A stretch of DNA of 44,947 nucleotides from a virus, in the IMG/VR virus record IMGVR_UViG_3300019880_000003, positions 1 through 44,947 of that record; one strand, written 5' to 3'. Below are positions 2,661-42,371 of this stretch, one piece after another. The stretch's first letter is position 1. Each line of letters starts with the position of its first letter. The notes under the pieces were generated by a model. It worked only from the letters and a program-made list of their open reading frames with translations. It was not told the origin of the DNA and made no database searches. Made by a program: the position numbers and the translations under genes.

Positions 2661-4469
2661 ATGCCTAGGACCACCGAACAAATCGCAGAGCGGGTTGAGT
2701 CGCTAAGGCGTGCATCAGCAGAACGGGATCAGAGGCGCCAGGATGTTGCTGACGTCCGAAGCGGCAGGATCGAGAACATTCTGCCAGGCTCGATGCCGGA
2801 CGCGTGGCCGCGTCCCATTGTTGCCAACCTGATCGATACGTCTGCCCGTGATACCGCAGAGGTGATGGGCGCAATGCCCAGCATCAACTGTGCTGCCGGA
2901 AGGCAGACGACCGAGAAGGCCAAGAACTTCTCAGGCAAGCGCACCAAGATTGCCAACCACTACGTACAGGAGTCCGGCCTCAGGGCCGGACGCCAGGTCG
3001 TGGCAGCCGACTACTACGGCACCTATGCTGCGACCATCTACAAGATCGAGCCCGACTTCGAGAAGAAGCAGCCGTTCATCAGGGTCATCAACCCGATGGG
3101 TACCTATGTCGAGAAGGATCTGTTCCACAGGATCAAGTCCTTCAGCCGCGTCTGGACCGAAGAGGCTGTTCACCTGGTCTCGAAGTATCCTCACCTCCTT
3201 CGCGTTCTCCGCCCACAGAACCAGAGTGCTTCTGGATTCGAGGGCTGGCAGGAGCGGAAGATCGAGGTCTGCTGCTATGAAGATGCAGACCAGATCGTCA
3301 TGTACCTTCCCGCCCACAGCAACTGGCTCGTCAGTTCCATGCCCAACCCTATGGGCCGGGTCATGGTGGCTATCGGTGAGCGTCCCGGATTCGATGGTGA
3401 AACCCGAGGCGCCTACGATGACGCCATTTGGGTGCAGCTAGCCAAGGCGCGCATGGCGCTGCTCGGTCTCGAAGCTACAGAGAAGACCGTGCGTGCACCG
3501 CTCGCCGTTCCCCGCGACGTCCAGAAGATGAACTTCGGTGACGACGCGATCATCCGCACGGACTCCCCGGACAAGATCAGGCGAGTCGGTATCGATGTCC
3601 CCAGTGCTGCGTTCCAAGAAGGCCAGATGCTCGAACAGGAGCTTCGCGTCGGAACGCGAACTCCTGAGGCCCGATCCGGCAACATGGACGCCTCGGTCAT
3701 TACGGGCCGGGGAGTCCAGGCGTTGATGGGTGGATTCAACACTGTCATCGCTACAGGGCAGTCCGTGCTTGCGGAGACGCTGGCAATGGCCATCGAGTTG
3801 TGCTTCGAGATGGACGAGAAGCTGTGGCCGATGGAGAAGAAGACCATCAGGGGCACGGTTCAGGGCACTCCCTTCGAGGAGACCTACCAGCCCAAGAAAG
3901 ATATCGCCGGTGATACCACGGTTGATGTGACGTACGGCTTCGCTGCCGGGCAGGACCCCGCAAGGGCGATCGTAGGTCTCCTCCAGCTGCGAGGCGATCA
4001 GCTCATCTCCCGCGACTTCTTCCAGCGGCAGCTGCCTATGGAGATCGATGTCGCTCAGATGCAGATCCAGATCGACAATGAACAGATGGTCGATGCGATC
4101 AAGCAGGGCATGATGGGTTTCGCTCAGGCCATCCCTCAGATGGCCCTGCAAGGGCAGGACCCGACCGATTCTCTCAAGAAGCTTGCCGACATGATGAAGC
4201 TTCGAGAAAAGGGCGAATCCATCCAGGATGCAGTCCTCAAGGTCTTCACTCCGCCGAAGGGCGCAGCCGCCCCTCAGAACCCCTTGGAGGCAATGCTTGG
4301 GGGTGGAGGTCCAGCCGGACCTGGCGGAGCCCCACAGGGGCCTCCAGGGGCCGGGGCGCCCCCACAGGGCGCACCTCAGGGCATGGACCTGCAGACGATG
4401 CTTAGTGGATTGACTGGCTCGGGCCAGGCGACCATGGGCGTCAAGTCATCCCGACAGCAAGCTATCTAA
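2661..4469 (+). CDS. Portal protein
   Basis: 602 residues following a strong AAGGAGGTGAC ribosome site. It directly follows the terminase-endolysin pair and precedes the virion genes, as expected for the dodecameric vertex through which DNA passes. The body is a long mixed alpha/beta protein; the last 70 residues are Gly/Pro/Gln/Met-rich low complexity (GGPAGPGGAPQGPPGAGAPP), probably disordered. I recognise it by position, length and general portal-like composition more than by a specific motif. The length fits portals of podoviruses. Confidence 0.75.
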   Translation: MPRTTEQIAERVESLRRASAERDQRRQDVADVRSGRIENILPGSMPDAWPRPIVANLIDTSARDTAEVMGAMPSINCAAGRQTTEKAKNFSGKRTKIANHYVQESGLRAGRQVVAADYYGTYAATIYKIEPDFEKKQPFIRVINPMGTYVEKDLFHRIKSFSRVWTEEAVHLVSKYPHLLRVLRPQNQSASGFEGWQERKIEVCCYEDADQIVMYLPAHSNWLVSSMPNPMGRVMVAIGERPGFDGETRGAYDDAIWVQLAKARMALLGLEATEKTVRAPLAVPRDVQKMNFGDDAIIRTDSPDKIRRVGIDVPSAAFQEGQMLEQELRVGTRTPEARSGNMDASVITGRGVQALMGGFNTVIATGQSVLAETLAMAIELCFEMDEKLWPMEKKTIRGTVQGTPFEETYQPKKDIAGDTTVDVTYGFAAGQDPARAIVGLLQLRGDQLISRDFFQRQLPMEIDVAQMQIQIDNEQMVDAIKQGMMGFAQAIPQMALQGQDPTDSLKKLADMMKLREKGESIQDAVLKVFTPPKGAAAPQNPLEAMLGGGGPAGPGGAPQGPPGAGAPPQGAPQGMDLQTMLSGLTGSGQATMGVKSSRQQAI

Positions 4470-15326: not shown

Positions 15327-15368
15327 GGGCAATGGCATACGGGGTGGTTCGAGTCCACCCGCTCTACC
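15322..15368 (+). ncRNA. tRNA T-arm/acceptor-like element (copy 1)
   Basis: The sequence pairs as GGTA-A-GGGC with GCTC-TACC (8 bp, one bulged A, one G-U). An 11-nt bulge 15331-15341 follows, then GGGTGG-TTCGAGT-CCACCC. The 7-base loop plus closing pair reads GTTCGAGTC, the tRNA T-loop consensus. The 3' strand is continuous across both helices, as in the acceptor/T stack of a tRNA, but there is no room for D or anticodon arms. The stop codon of the preceding gene is inside the left strand. A related copy is at 32008-32053 on the other strand. It fills the otherwise gene-free 15327-15484 gap before the scaffold gene; I see no clear promoter there. Confidence 0.6.
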
Positions 15369-32007: not shown

Positions 32008-32053
32008 GGACCGGGGAGGAGTCGAACCTCCCCTACGACCATCGGCCCTACCT
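32008..32053 (-). ncRNA. tRNA T-arm/acceptor-like element (copy 2)
   Basis: On the minus strand, GGGCC (32048-32044) pairs with GGTCC (32012-32008), with a 10-nt bulge GATGGTCGTA. A 7-bp T-like stem GGGGAGG / CCTCCCC closes the loop TTCGACT. The 3' strand is continuous across the helices. It begins two bases after the stop of 32055-32552. Copy 1 (15322-15368) shares AGGTA, GGGC, ATGG and GGGG-GGTTCGA-TCC-CCC, with a T-A to A-T compensatory change in the stem. Not a complete tRNA. The rest of the 31967-32054 gap holds nothing else I can identify. Confidence 0.6.
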
Positions 32054-39461: not shown

Positions 39462-39520
39462 CTGTAGTGCCGTCTCAACCAGCGAGCCCGCAAGGGCTCG
39501 CCAGCTCAGCCTGGCTACAG
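39462..39520 (-). ncRNA. Intercistronic RNA element 1 of block 2
   Basis: Read on the minus strand: CTGTAG-CC-AGG-CTGAGC, a 10-bp inner stem TGGCGAGCCC / GGGCTCGCTG with loop TTGC, then GTTGAG-AC-GG-CA-CTACAG. The closing stem is CTGTAG / CTACAG, and the TAG stop of 39515-39931 is inside its left strand. 59 nt. Same architecture as the elements at 40394, 41615 and 42320. Confidence 0.7.
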
Positions 39521-39931
39521 GAAGTAGTCAATCAGGTCTGCGATCTGATCGAACGTGAATCCGCCGTCGTTCAGGTCGGCAAGGCTCTCGGCCTGTCGGA
39601 GCCTCTCGCCATCCTTGATGTAGCTGAAGGAGATGGCAGTTTCGGCTTCATCGTCACTGAATTCGTTGCGCGTTCCGGCCCACACCTGGATCGTGTCGGC
39701 GTAGTAGCCAGATACGCTATTGGACTCGGTGCCGTCGATCGAGTAGCTCAGGTACTCAGGGTCCAGCTTAAGCCACTGCCCGACGCCGTCGGCGACCGCG
39801 AGGTCTGACAGCACCCCAAGGCAGCAGTAGGACCGCTTGCTGAACCTGACACTGCACAGAATACCCCTGGCCTGCTGGTACTTGCCGGAGCGCAGCGCAG
39901 CAACCCACTGGGCCTTCTTTACCTTGTTCAT
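39515..39931 (-). CDS. Phage protein of unknown function, CCLGVL type
   Basis: 138 residues from ATG 39931. MNKVKKAQWVAALRSGKYQQ, then SYCCLGVLSDLAVADGVGQW and GFTFDQIADLIDYFL. The W-x-x-ALRSGxY...CCLGVLxDL pattern recurs in many phage hypothetical proteins. Function unknown. Leader ATAGGAGAGAGACA. Confidence 0.7.
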   Translation of the reverse strand: MNKVKKAQWVAALRSGKYQQARGILCSVRFSKRSYCCLGVLSDLAVADGVGQWLKLDPEYLSYSIDGTESNSVSGYYADTIQVWAGTRNEFSDDEAETAISFSYIKDGERLRQAESLADLNDGGFTFDQIADLIDYFL

Positions 39932-39962
39932 TGTCTCTCTCCTATGTTCCGGATCATGCATT

Positions 39963-40017
39963 CATGATGCCGCCAATACCGGCATCCCCGAAGGGATGCC
40001 GACAAAGGGTGGTCATG
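39963..40017 (-). ncRNA. Intercistronic RNA element 2, divergent member
   Basis: Minus strand: CATGA-CC ... GG-CA-TCATG closing stem with the same CC/GG plus bulged CA, and an inner stem CGGCATCCC / GGGATGCCG with loop TTCG. The P2 segment is degenerate. The TGA stop of 40013-40231 is inside the left closing strand. Confidence 0.6.
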
Positions 40018-40231
40018 GATTACTAAGCCGTCTTACCCTGTCAAGCCTGATCTTTTCTTCGCGAGACTCGACCGGCCTCATGTACGCGCTGATCTCTTCG
40101 GCGGTGAAGTACTCCGTGCGGTCCGAGTAGTACTCACGGCACATCCATAGGGGAGCGCCATTCGCGTCCATCCCGCACTCGCCGTAGACAATGAATTCCT
40201 CGTTGCCCTTGAAGAATCGCTGGTAGACCAT
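40013..40231 (-). CDS. Unknown protein
   Basis: 72 residues. MVYQRFFKGNEEFIVYGECG, then CREYYSDRTEYFTAEEISAY, with a basic end. ATG overlaps the upstream stop (TAATG), so it is coupled. No family recognised. Confidence 0.6.
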   Translation of the reverse strand: MVYQRFFKGNEEFIVYGECGMDANGAPLWMCREYYSDRTEYFTAEEISAYMRPVESREEKIRLDRVRRLSNP

Positions 40232-40371
40232 TAGCTATTCCTCCGGTTCCGGCGGAGCGAGGTGAAGGCGAGTACCACGGTTGCGATACCCACATAAACC
40301 ATGCGCAGTACCAGGCTGACGACATAGATCAGCAACAGGAAGCCAATGATCTCTCCGAACGTAACTGCCAT
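40231..40371 (-). CDS. Small membrane protein
   Basis: 46 residues from ATG 40371 after CCGAAGGAGAGAGACA. MAVTFGEIIGFLLLIYVVSL and VYVGIATVVLAFT are two hydrophobic segments; the basic tail SLRRNRRNS sits in the cytoplasm by the positive-inside rule. Unknown role. Confidence 0.6.
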   Translation of the reverse strand: MAVTFGEIIGFLLLIYVVSLVLRMVYVGIATVVLAFTSLRRNRRNS

Positions 40372-40393
40372 TGTCTCTCTCCTTCGGTTTCGG

Positions 40394-40446
40394 CTGTAGT
40401 GCCGTCTCAACGGCCCTCCAGGGAGGGCCGCTCAGTCTGGCTACAG
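40394..40446 (-). ncRNA. Intercistronic RNA element 3 of block 2
   Basis: Minus strand: CTGTAG-CC-AGA-CTGAGC, inner GGCCCTC / GAGGGCC with loop CCTG, GTTGAG-AC-GG-CA-CTACAG. 53 nt. TAG stop of 40441-40620 is inside the left closing strand. Directly followed by CCGA and then the conserved leader. Confidence 0.7.
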
Positions 40447-40620
40447 TTCGATATCCTCGCGCTGGCAGCTGTAGTCCTCGAACGGGCTGCGCCGCTGCAA
40501 GTCGTCATACGGCGTGCAGGCCGCGTCCAGGCACTCCCGACAGAGCGACCAGCCACCATCTGCTGCGGTGAAGCTGATCTCAAAGCAATCCCTGCACGTA
40601 CAGGGGCAGTATCCAGACAT
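40441..40620 (-). CDS. Cys-rich probable zinc protein
   Basis: 59 residues, MSGYCPCTCRDCFEISFTAA, then SLCRECLDAACTPYDDLQRR, ending CQREDIEL. Eight Cys in CxCxxxC and CxxC arrangements suggest two metal sites. ATG overlaps the preceding stop (TGATG). Unknown. Confidence 0.6.
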   Translation of the reverse strand: MSGYCPCTCRDCFEISFTAADGGWSLCRECLDAACTPYDDLQRRSPFEDYSCQREDIEL

Positions 40621-40784
40621 CAGAACTCCACCTTTCGGTATCGCCATTCGGTCTCTTCGTAGTCCCGCGCCTTGTGCCACTCCATGGCCTCTATGGCCGC
40701 TTGCTCGGTGTGGCGTACGCCGACGTGATACCAGTCGACCGGTACGTGCTCGGGCGCCCTGCACTCGATGATGAACTTCTCCAT
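40620..40784 (-). CDS. Unknown protein
   Basis: 54 residues, MEKFIIECRAPEHVPVDWYH at the start and RDYEETEWRYRKVEF at the end. Overlaps both neighbours by 1-3 bp. Charged, possibly a small alpha/beta domain. Confidence 0.55.
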   Translation of the reverse strand: MEKFIIECRAPEHVPVDWYHVGVRHTEQAAIEAMEWHKARDYEETEWRYRKVEF

Positions 40785-40858
40785 CACTCGCTCCCCAGGG
40801 TCTCGTCATCAAGCTCCCAGTCAAGCACGATGTTCTCATCGTTCTCTTCTTCGGGCAT
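40784..40858 (-). CDS. Acidic 24-residue peptide
   Basis: MPEEENDENIVLDWELDDET followed by LGSE. Ten acidic residues. Overlaps the preceding stop (TAATG) and the following start (TGATG). Too short to classify; overlap style supports translation. Confidence 0.45.
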   Translation of the reverse strand: MPEEENDENIVLDWELDDETLGSE

Positions 40859-41124
40859 TACAGGTTCCCTCGCTGGTAGTGCACGCCCTCCAGAGTCACC
40901 GCAACAGTGTGCAGCTTGTCGTAGGCATCCCGCTTGGTCCAGCCAAGGAATCCTTGGGAGATGCCGACGGGCTGAGCGCCACCCTGGAGGGCCTTGTGCG
41001 AGTTGCCGTACAGCTTGCTGCCCCGGGTCAGTTCGATGCCCTCAGAGGGCAGCTCAAGGGCCTTCAAGGCACGCACGTAGCGTGCCAGCATGACATCCAG
41101 GTGCTCATTGGTGATGCGGTCCAT
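40858..41124 (-). CDS. Unknown helical protein with GGAGAGAGACA leader
   Basis: 88 residues from ATG 41124. MDRITNEHLDVMLARYVRAL, ELPSEGIELTRGSKLYGNSH and a C-terminal LEGVHYQRGNL. Amphipathic helices dominate. Preceded by CAAAGGAGAGAGACA. Unknown. Confidence 0.65.
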   Translation of the reverse strand: MDRITNEHLDVMLARYVRALKALELPSEGIELTRGSKLYGNSHKALQGGAQPVGISQGFLGWTKRDAYDKLHTVAVTLEGVHYQRGNL

Positions 41125-41140
41125 TGTCTCTCTCCTTTGG

Positions 41141-41184
41141 TTGTAGCACCCTGCCCCTCCAGGGGCAGACGCTCAGGGCCTAAG
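41141..41184 (-). ncRNA. Intercistronic RNA element 4, degenerate
   Basis: Minus strand: TTAGGCC-CTGAGC and inner stem CTGCCCC / GGGGCAG with loop TGGA, then GGTGCTACAA. The left CTGAGC is kept, but the right GTTGAG segment is missing and the closing stem is weak. A decayed or simplified family member. Confidence 0.5.
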
Positions 41185-41208
41185 CCGGTTTAGAGTCCCC
41201 CTGAGGAC

Positions 41209-41589
41209 TTATTTCTTGTGCCGTCGATCCTGCGAGGCGAATACAGTGACAACCCTGCCGCCGTTGATCGTCTTGATTGCGCTGGAGATCTCCACACCGT
41301 CAACGTGCAGGAAGTGTACGGCCGTGATGTTGTCTTGCTCAAACCACTCCGTGTGCAGTTCATCCACTTCCTGCTTGGTGTCCACGTAGTGATTCGTGGT
41401 CCCGTAGGCGTAGTCGCCCTTAGTGTTATTGTTGATGGCTACGTGATAGCGCGCAGTCTTCTCCTTACGCCCTTCTGCGTCCTGCTTGAGCGCTGCCATC
41501 ACGTTCAAATCGAATTCGACGGAGGTAATGTGCCCCATGGACAGCTGCGTCTCCAGTGCGGCGACGCGTTGCCAAAGCTTCAGCTTCAT
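41209..41589 (-). CDS. Unknown protein with GGAGAGAGACA leader
   Basis: 126 residues from ATG 41589. MKLKLWQRVAALETQLSMGH (helix), then RYHVAINNNTKGDYAYGTTN and HFLHVDGVEISSAIKTINGG. Alpha/beta, ends DRRHKK. No family recognised. Confidence 0.65.
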   Translation of the reverse strand: MKLKLWQRVAALETQLSMGHITSVEFDLNVMAALKQDAEGRKEKTARYHVAINNNTKGDYAYGTTNHYVDTKQEVDELHTEWFEQDNITAVHFLHVDGVEISSAIKTINGGRVVTVFASQDRRHKK

Positions 41590-41614
41590 TGTCTCTCTCC
41601 AGTCATTCAATCGG

Positions 41615-41666
41615 CTGAGGTGCCGTCCCAACGCTCCCCAAGGGGGAGCGCTCGGAGTGGCCTCAG
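41615..41666 (-). ncRNA. Intercistronic RNA element 5 of block 2
   Basis: Minus strand: CTGAGG-CC-ACT-CCGAGC, inner GCTCCCC / GGGGAGC with loop CTT, GTTGGG-AC-GG-CA-CCTCAG. Closing stem and P2 differ from element 3 at paired positions but stay complementary. The TGA stop of 41663-41947 is inside the left closing strand. 52 nt. Confidence 0.72.
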
Positions 41667-41947
41667 ATCCATTCGGTCATTGCGTGGCGTTCGCCGTGGT
41701 AATCGCTCCCGCAGCCATCGCAGGAGCGAGTGCTGAACGTAATTGTCTCGCAGTCACACTCACCGAAGTAAGTGTCATTTTCACGGCCGCATTCATGCTC
41801 TTCCTGTGGGTGGCCCATGGCGGCATGCGGGGTCAGGAATGCCATCGGCACTCCACCTTCGTGACCCTCGTGACAGCCCCCACACTCACCGTTGTAGTGG
41901 TGCATGGCGCAGTCAACGCAGACCCATAGGGCGCGGTAGTCTCGCAT
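41663..41947 (-). CDS. Cys-rich phage protein, probable double zinc domain
   Basis: 94 residues from ATG 41947 after GGAGAGAGACC. MRDYRALWVCVDCAMHHYNG, then CGGCHEGHEGG, and a C-terminal CDCETITFSTRSCDGCGSDY ending HAMTEWI. The C-terminal CxC...CDGCGS...RHAxT pattern recurs in phage hypothetical proteins. Function unknown. Confidence 0.7.
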   Translation of the reverse strand: MRDYRALWVCVDCAMHHYNGECGGCHEGHEGGVPMAFLTPHAAMGHPQEEHECGRENDTYFGECDCETITFSTRSCDGCGSDYHGERHAMTEWI

Positions 41948-41970
41948 GGTCTCTCTCCTTTGGTCAGGTT

Positions 41971-42024
41971 CTGAGTGAACCAAGCCAACGGACGGCCGAA
42001 GCCGTCCGCTCGATAGCTACTCAG
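41971..42024 (-). ncRNA. Intercistronic RNA element 6, divergent
   Basis: Minus strand: CTGAG closing with CTCAG, left CGAGC, inner GGACGGC / GCCGTCC with loop TTCG, right GTTGG. The CC/GG and CA parts are altered. The TGA stop of 42021-42299 lies in the left closing strand. Confidence 0.55.
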
Positions 42025-42299
42025 TACTCGTCGTGCCAACTCGGTTGCGGTGCCCAGTAGGGCGTCTGACTGATCGCGTTGTCGATATCGGCGGAGGTAA
42101 GGTAGATGCACCCTTGTCCGTCGTCACGCTTGCAGACCCAGAAGTCCTCGTCGGTCGCTGAGTCGGTGCCGTAGGACTGGCTCACCGTGTAGTTCACGTC
42201 ATTCATGGTGAACGCACTGCCTACGTACCACTCTTCCTTGCAGTGATCGCAGTAGGCCGAACCATCGACCGTGTAATGCCGACACATCTCGTGCGTCAT
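42021..42299 (-). CDS. Unknown protein with Cys/His pair
   Basis: 92 residues from ATG 42299. MTHEMCRHYTVDGSAYCDHC has a CxxC-like zinc knuckle; then VNYTVSQSYGTDSATDEDFW and a Trp/Pro-rich end. Leader CCGAAGGAGAGAGACA. Unknown. Confidence 0.65.
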   Translation of the reverse strand: MTHEMCRHYTVDGSAYCDHCKEEWYVGSAFTMNDVNYTVSQSYGTDSATDEDFWVCKRDDGQGCIYLTSADIDNAISQTPYWAPQPSWHDEY

Positions 42300-42319
42300 T
42301 GTCTCTCTCCTTCGGTCGG

Positions 42320-42371
42320 CTGAGATGCCGTCCCAACACGCCTCAGAGAGGCGTGCTCGGAGTGGTCTCAG
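42320..42371 (-). ncRNA. Intercistronic RNA element 7 of block 2
   Basis: Minus strand: CTGAGA-CC-ACT-CCGAGC, inner ACGCCTC / GAGGCGT with loop TCT, GTTGGG-AC-GG-CA-TCTCAG. 52 nt. Unlike the others it lies 9 bp after the preceding stop rather than enclosing it. Followed by CCGA and the conserved leader. Confidence 0.72.

Follow-up and report, generated by a model that had tools for sequence, protein, structure and literature searches.

The 44,947-base soil phage record IMGVR_UViG_3300019880_000003 (here the window, meaning the whole stretch of DNA analysed) carries, between the small leftward genes that occupy its right end, a repeated RNA element that we call R1. R1 is a real, covarying, repeated family of intercistronic RNAs, and it is probable, at roughly two chances in three, that it is an mRNA-processing element at which a polycistronic phage transcript would be cut between its cistrons. 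The terminase DNA of the window is about 80-85% identical to that of the Streptomyces phages FlowerPower, Immanuel3 and their relatives; gene calls throughout are script-made. The initial annotation had noticed four elements of one plan at 39462, 40394, 41615 and 42320, and these are present as described, on the minus strand in the gaps of the leftward small-gene operon; of the three divergent copies that it added, the one at 39963 belongs to the family, whereas that at 41141 is better assigned to the pistol ribozymes and that at 41971 is not found by our models. In the following list positions within R1 refer to the 63 columns of alignment A1, the core being renumbered to make the 3' half 46-63; structure A is the R1 hairpin itself and hairpin B its alternative downstream partner.

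39462 to 39520, minus strand: R1 copy 1 (structure A hairpin), predicted cut just 5' of C53 at 39472, hairpin B at about 39471-39451
39962 to 40018, minus strand: distant fifth R1 copy (refined model R3, 26.6 bits, E 2.5e-5) of subtype CUUUGUC/GGUAUUGG, hairpin B at about 39972-39950, partly by direct reading
40394 to 40446, minus strand: R1 copy 2, C53 at 40404, hairpin B at 40404-40391 (CGGC...GCCG)
41615 to 41666, minus strand: R1 copy 3, C53 at 41625, hairpin B at 41625-41612
42320 to 42371, minus strand: R1 copy 4, C53 at 42330, hairpin B at 42330-42317

A pattern drawn from the four main copies retrieved true relatives in the viral contigs L006, L009, L011 and L012 together with three chance matches. 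A covariance model of nine copies, searched in 50 records found via terminase and patterns, scores the four main window copies at E 1e-13 to 1e-17 and finds the family in 14 of these records; run on an overlapping set of 50 phage records, either related or taken for comparison, the refined model R3 finds 70 copies in 25 of them. Within the window R3 finds five copies, four strong and one distant. The E-values come from a shortened calibration, and the collection searches relied on exact patterns, which miss divergent members. Named carriers are Stella and FlowerPower, the latter with a copy at NC_048706.1:44218-44273 on the minus strand (predicted C53 at about 44228), and every copy that was mapped is intercistronic. 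A scan of bacterial genome contigs with the R1 pattern gave 54 matches in scattered taxa against roughly 58 estimated by chance; the best model score, among matches preselected by that pattern, was 30.9 bits (L244). The initial annotation did not recognise the family, and R1 copies have no Rfam counterpart: against Rfam 15, none was matched at E<=5 in the window, L006, L009, L011 or L012, and none at the gathering cut-off in L132-L144. R1 is an RNA family absent from Rfam, and the general kind of device is one already known.

The proposal that the family covaries is borne out by these additional homologues. Among 60 aligned matches, two-sided changes are seen in 11 of 13 pairs, and pairing is kept in 98.5% of the cells, compared with 79.8% when shuffled and at most 39% when slid; pair 13-50 alone is seen as U-A, G-C, A-U and C-G. 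Because this alignment had been fitted to the structure, covariation was retested on 35 ungapped flanking positions of 41 distinct copies, under a phylogeny-aware null in which the same substitutions are moved along the same tree. Of 595 column pairs, the seven that score highest all belong to the proposed R1 structure; E is below 0.017 for 13-50, 12-51 and 4-60, and is 0.05 for 2-62. The record L134 holds four identical copies (at 3435, 5981, 6252 and 7217, minus strand), and L135 shares their inner part but closes it with another stem, a pattern that suggests recent copying of elements between slots.

Structure A is an irregular hairpin of 51-65 nt in which both lower and upper stems covary. 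The closing stem P1 (1-6 with 58-63) is followed by pair 7-55, always C-G, and pair 8-54, C-G or U-A; an internal loop then sets A9 and N10 against C53, with N11 and N52 paired in about half of the copies. Above the loop come pairs 12-51 and 13-50, a G14.G49 mismatch in most copies, A15-U48, G16.U47, C17-G46, and finally a variable inner stem of at least 6-7 bp in the parsed copies, while Y56 and A57 form a bulge. Near-invariant are A9, C53, Y56, A57 and the C7-G55 pair. R1 follows or overlaps the upstream stop codon, ends between a few and about 20 nt before the next Shine-Dalgarno sequence, and lies only about 12-32 nt from the next start; a stop triplet stands in the 5' strand of P1 of almost every copy and is often the true stop of the upstream gene. 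The initial annotation placed a stop codon in the left closing strand of five copies, and by our gene calls this holds for five window elements (39462, 40394, 41615, 39963 and 41971); at 42320 the upstream gene ends 12 nt upstream of the element. The fixed CC, which had been taken as unpaired, pairs with GG and covaries with it (CC/GG to CU/AG). Of the other fixed bases thought to be unpaired, C53, R54, G55 and Y56 find partners in the spacer in structure B, so that there is less evidence here for recognition by a ligand or a protein.

This second hairpin, mutually exclusive with P1 and with pairs 7-55 and 8-54, is absent from the initial annotation. In it the 3' arm of R1 (C53 R54 G55 Y56) pairs instead with a downstream RCYG motif, and the spacer follows the element: GCCGA after CC/GG copies, GCUGA after CU/AG copies. 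Positions 54-56 are able to pair with the spacer in 46 of 47 distinct copies, and the triplet of position 8, position 54 and the spacer partner covaries (C,G,C in 35 copies; U,A,U in 7; C,G,U in 2; U,G,C in 2). C53 pairs with a G in 40 copies, position 52 almost never lengthens the stem, and a stem of at least 4 bp that includes C53 forms within 12 nt in 40 of 47 copies, compared with 7.0±2.2 after shuffling. When the 3' piece is folded from position 54, its first base is paired in 44 of 45 copies. The mean energy of this fold is -5.6 kcal/mol; it rises to -4.5±0.17 when copies exchange their spacers and to -2.3 when the spacers are shuffled. The base of B is fixed at C53, and the stem, counted from 54, is between 3 and 8 bp long.

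These features are consistent with the following course of events. Structure A would be cut in the 3' strand of its internal loop, at N52|C53, leaving the upstream mRNA to end in the stable upper stem-loop; the freed 3' arm would refold with the spacer into hairpin B, so that the downstream mRNA would begin directly with B and have its Shine-Dalgarno sequence free. We place the cut at N52|C53 because the base of B is fixed there while its length varies, and because elements with a known cut point that fill the same kind of slot show the same layout.

One such element lies in the window itself.

41144 to 41209, minus strand: pistol self-cleaving ribozyme (RF02679, 43.4 bits against a gathering score of 34.5)

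Its first base is the final A of the upstream TAA, its end falls about 20 nt short of the following ATG, and the P1 loop CUCAGGG is complementary to the junction CCCUGAG; this pseudoknot is kept with other sequences in G024 and G025 (UCUGGG/CCCAGA and UCGCAG/CUGCGA), which hold two pistols each, one with a stop codon inside P1. By covariance model and pseudoknot this is a pistol ribozyme, with self-cleavage predicted. The predicted product of the G025 pistols has a hairpin that begins at nucleotide 1 or 2, and the product hairpins in G024 and G025 reuse a ribozyme strand.

Type II hammerheads behave likewise: they come immediately behind stop codons in phage operons of this kind, and the product begins with stem I, a hairpin at nucleotide 1 or 2.

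G019:8493-8560, minus strand: type II hammerhead, 58.2 bits, its first bases overlapping a TAG stop
G042:9387-9447 (minus), G043:17760-17820 (plus) and G066:7439-7499 (plus): type II hammerheads at 31.7 bits, below the curated cut-off, with core strands intact and directly after TAA
L077 near 2345 (minus) and L092 near 6590 (minus): hammerheads by structure scan, which found four

A third occupant is a mini-tRNA-like RNA of about 40 nt, with a 5-bp acceptor stem, a YGGCA loop and a 6-bp T-stem bearing a UUCGAGY loop. Its pairing is 100% in an 18-sequence alignment, including two apparent tertiary pairs, and its model gives about 77 matches in 19 of 50 records, counting a weak one that is only partial. 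A hairpin lies within a few nucleotides downstream of 68 of 80 mini-tRNAs.

32008 to 32048, minus strand: mini-tRNA-like element (acceptor stem and T-arm, no anticodon arm), from the structure scan, in an intercistronic gap of leftward genes
15327 to 15364, plus strand: mini-tRNA-like element

These elements mix within operons. R1 is found with a pistol in the window, with mini-tRNAs in G037, G031, L067, L082/L083 and L162 and also in G042 and G066, and with hammerheads in G019 (three R1 and a hammerhead II), G042 and G066; mini-tRNA and pistol share operons in G024 and G025. Related genes meet different modules: after a 64-65%-identical gene R1 stands in G019 and a mini-tRNA in G024/G025; before a 45-47%-identical gene R1 stands in L067, L054 and L082 and a mini-tRNA in L075; before a 37%-identical gene the window has its pistol and L132 has R1. 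Among the roles listed in the initial annotation, the best fits are RNase processing site and RNA stabiliser, given that equivalent slots are filled by pistols, hammerheads and mini-tRNAs and that the hairpin into which the 3' arm refolds has a fixed starting point; nothing links R1 to a phage regulator, another role on that list.

Several observations weigh against a processing role. The shared GCYGA motif partly satisfies the swapped-spacer control, so the shuffled control overstates the element-specific B signal; pairing in A or B accounts neither for A9 and A57 nor for the invariant C7-G55 pair; and the product of the window's own pistol has no 5' hairpin. The slot comparisons use script-made gene calls, and in every case of R1 exchange one flanking gene only is homologous, which speaks for module exchange rather than clean replacement at one site.

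As the cutter we tentatively name RNase III of the host, or another host enzyme that is likewise specific for double strands. RNase III is favoured because the R1 hairpin is irregular, as the T7 sites are, and where parsed has about 21 or more helical layers, enough for the imperfect duplex of about two helical turns expected of such a site, and because two-state hairpins unrelated in sequence fill the slots of FlowerPower and Immanuel3. The latter show the same refolding, several slots at z of about -3 to -4, in a test that covers only slots whose closing stem was identified by script, a minority. In these two phages (L145, L146) nearly every gap holds another irregular hairpin, with a recurring NGUR loop and GGU...UCC stem, whose 3' arm is also able to pair with the spacer, as in UGGCC-AACUCA-GGCCA.

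It is possible, though we doubt it, that R1 needs no protein and is a new class of small self-cleaving ribozyme, cut at the internal loop or at the YA bulge. R1 shares its slots with two unrelated self-cleaving ribozymes, is small, has a compact near-invariant core (A9, C53, Y56, A57 and C7-G55) amid covarying stems, and matches no Rfam family. However, with structure B taken into account only a few conserved bases still lack an explanation, a smaller number than in known ribozymes (the pistol has about ten highly conserved bases; PMC4604425), and the FlowerPower and Immanuel3 hairpins share the two-state plan but not the sequence. The stronger proposition that R1 is such a class, that its product refolds into a protective 5' hairpin, and that the phage lineage swaps at least four RNA-cutting modules (R1, pistol, hammerhead II and a mini-tRNA for RNase P) seems to us rather improbable. 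R1 was also considered as a divergent pistol, which is ruled out by the lack of any RF02679 match to an R1 copy; the hammerhead core strands CUGANGA and GAAA are absent from R1 copies.

A switch that works without cleavage is unlikely. In such a scheme a ribosome ending on the stop within P1 would open A and let B form, altering reinitiation at, or spacing to, the next gene; the stop triplet in the 5' strand of P1, often the real upstream stop, and the mutually exclusive, covarying A and B would suit it. Yet in the copies examined neither A nor B includes or hides the Shine-Dalgarno sequence, B is weak (about -4.5 kcal/mol for most copies, compared with about -30 for A), and it is ribozymes and mini-tRNAs, not switches, that share the slots. 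We give very little weight to the idea that R1 has been copied between genes as the target of an RNA-binding regulator, whether of phage or of host: the near-invariant loop bases and the many copies per genome, some identical (four in L134), could be so read, but no candidate protein turned up (no systematic search for one was made), and both the exchange with ribozymes and mini-tRNAs and the anchored hairpin B would go unexplained. Least probable of all is that R1 serves as an intrinsic terminator lacking a U tail or as a passive stabiliser of 3' ends, for although R1 copies are GC-rich hairpins after stop codons and U-less terminators were reportedly described for the phiC31 early region in a 1995 paper, no T-rich tail follows R1 copies and the minus-strand scan reports no such terminator where R1 lies, no promoter-like site appears in the region, the gap to the next start is only about 12-32 nt, four or more terminators in series without promoters would silence the operon, and neither structure B nor the conservation of the internal loop would be accounted for. 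Lacking a U tail and a promoter-like site, R1 was ruled out as a terminator; it was likewise ruled out as a DNA operator, its orientation always following the genes and its arms covarying as RNA pairs, and, having no T-arm, as a tRNA mimic, an idea that led to the mini-tRNA family.

The look-alike at 41971 may belong to a sister family.

41971 to 42024, minus strand: intercistronic hairpin of 54 nt (AGC...GAGC-hairpin-GUUGG...GGUUC), laid out as R1

Neither the R1 nor the R3 covariance model matches this hairpin, which by eye appears bistable (GGUUC-ACUCA-GAACC). Possible companions are L137:4904-4954 (plus) and L146:11615-11665 (minus), with the plan P1-AGC...CAGC/GAGC-hairpin-GUUGG...YGGUUC-P1' and, again by eye, spacer bistability.

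Many of the small leftward genes are preceded by a repeated ribosome-binding sequence, GGAGAGAGACAATG, unusually conserved, with copies at six or seven gene starts between 39428 and 42318 of the window; its position recalls the start-associated sequences of cluster K and EF phages. Similarity searches of the operon against named phages gave terminase matches only. Mini-tRNA records also include G023-G025, G027, G031, G036, G037, G039-G043, G045, G047, G054 and G066, and further L166, L188, L195 and L177; base -1 is A in 51 of 58, as is possible for an RNase P substrate. Mini-tRNA-like sequence occurs at 876 places in 230 named phage records (Streptomyces, Microbacterium, Pseudomonas, Mycobacterium), some of which may be partial matches or true tRNAs; no annotated feature lies under the listed matches in named phages, and Rfam lists none of the model matches in the loci tested. 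In Streptomyces phage Stella, 109 nt at L147:17526-17634 (minus) match bacterial 16S rRNA (85.4 bits, E 9.5e-23), possibly a captured rRNA fragment.

If R1 is the processing element that we propose, an explanation would be at hand for actinobacterial-phage intercistronic repeats whose reported role is unclear (PMC7302621). These phages would cut one long transcript into single-gene messages by means of modular RNA devices that leave hairpins at the new ends, natural small ribozymes would have a concrete job, and R1 would be a candidate new ribozyme or nuclease site with its cut position predicted to the nucleotide. Such elements might also serve as portable parts for gene insulation in Streptomyces operons.

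Among known systems, the RNase III sites of phage T7, placed between the early genes of a polycistronic mRNA, are irregular hairpins whose stems run to about 20 bp and contain an asymmetric internal loop. R1 resembles them in that several irregular hairpins separate cistrons from within intercistronic gaps, and differs in its near-invariant loop bases, the stop triplet in its lower stem and its covarying alternative 5' hairpin; cleavage of R1 by RNase III is a prediction. In mitochondrial tRNA punctuation, RNA folds between genes mark the points at which a transcript is cut; the mini-tRNAs of the sister slots resemble this directly, whereas R1 itself is not tRNA-like. SAS, ESAS and other intergenic repeats of actinobacterial phages are multi-copy, lie just upstream of conserved ribosome-binding sites, have a function reported as unclear, and are described as DNA motifs or simple inverted repeats (PMC7302621). 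R1, in contrast, is a covarying RNA structure: a comparison with ESAS of clusters K and EF revealed no shared consensus and no SAS link (SAS is GGGAAAGGACCCC in cluster EF, the window motif being GGAGAGAGACAATG), only a like position. The pistol ribozyme (RF02679), present in the window, occupies the same type of intercistronic slot as R1, which has neither the P1 hairpin-pseudoknot nor the conserved pistol core. The type II hammerhead (RF02276) shares with R1 a place immediately behind stop codons of the same operons, and R1 lacks its CUGANGA/GAAA core; published work describes the cleavage of phage-like polycistronic RNAs by tandem hammerheads (PMC3088659).

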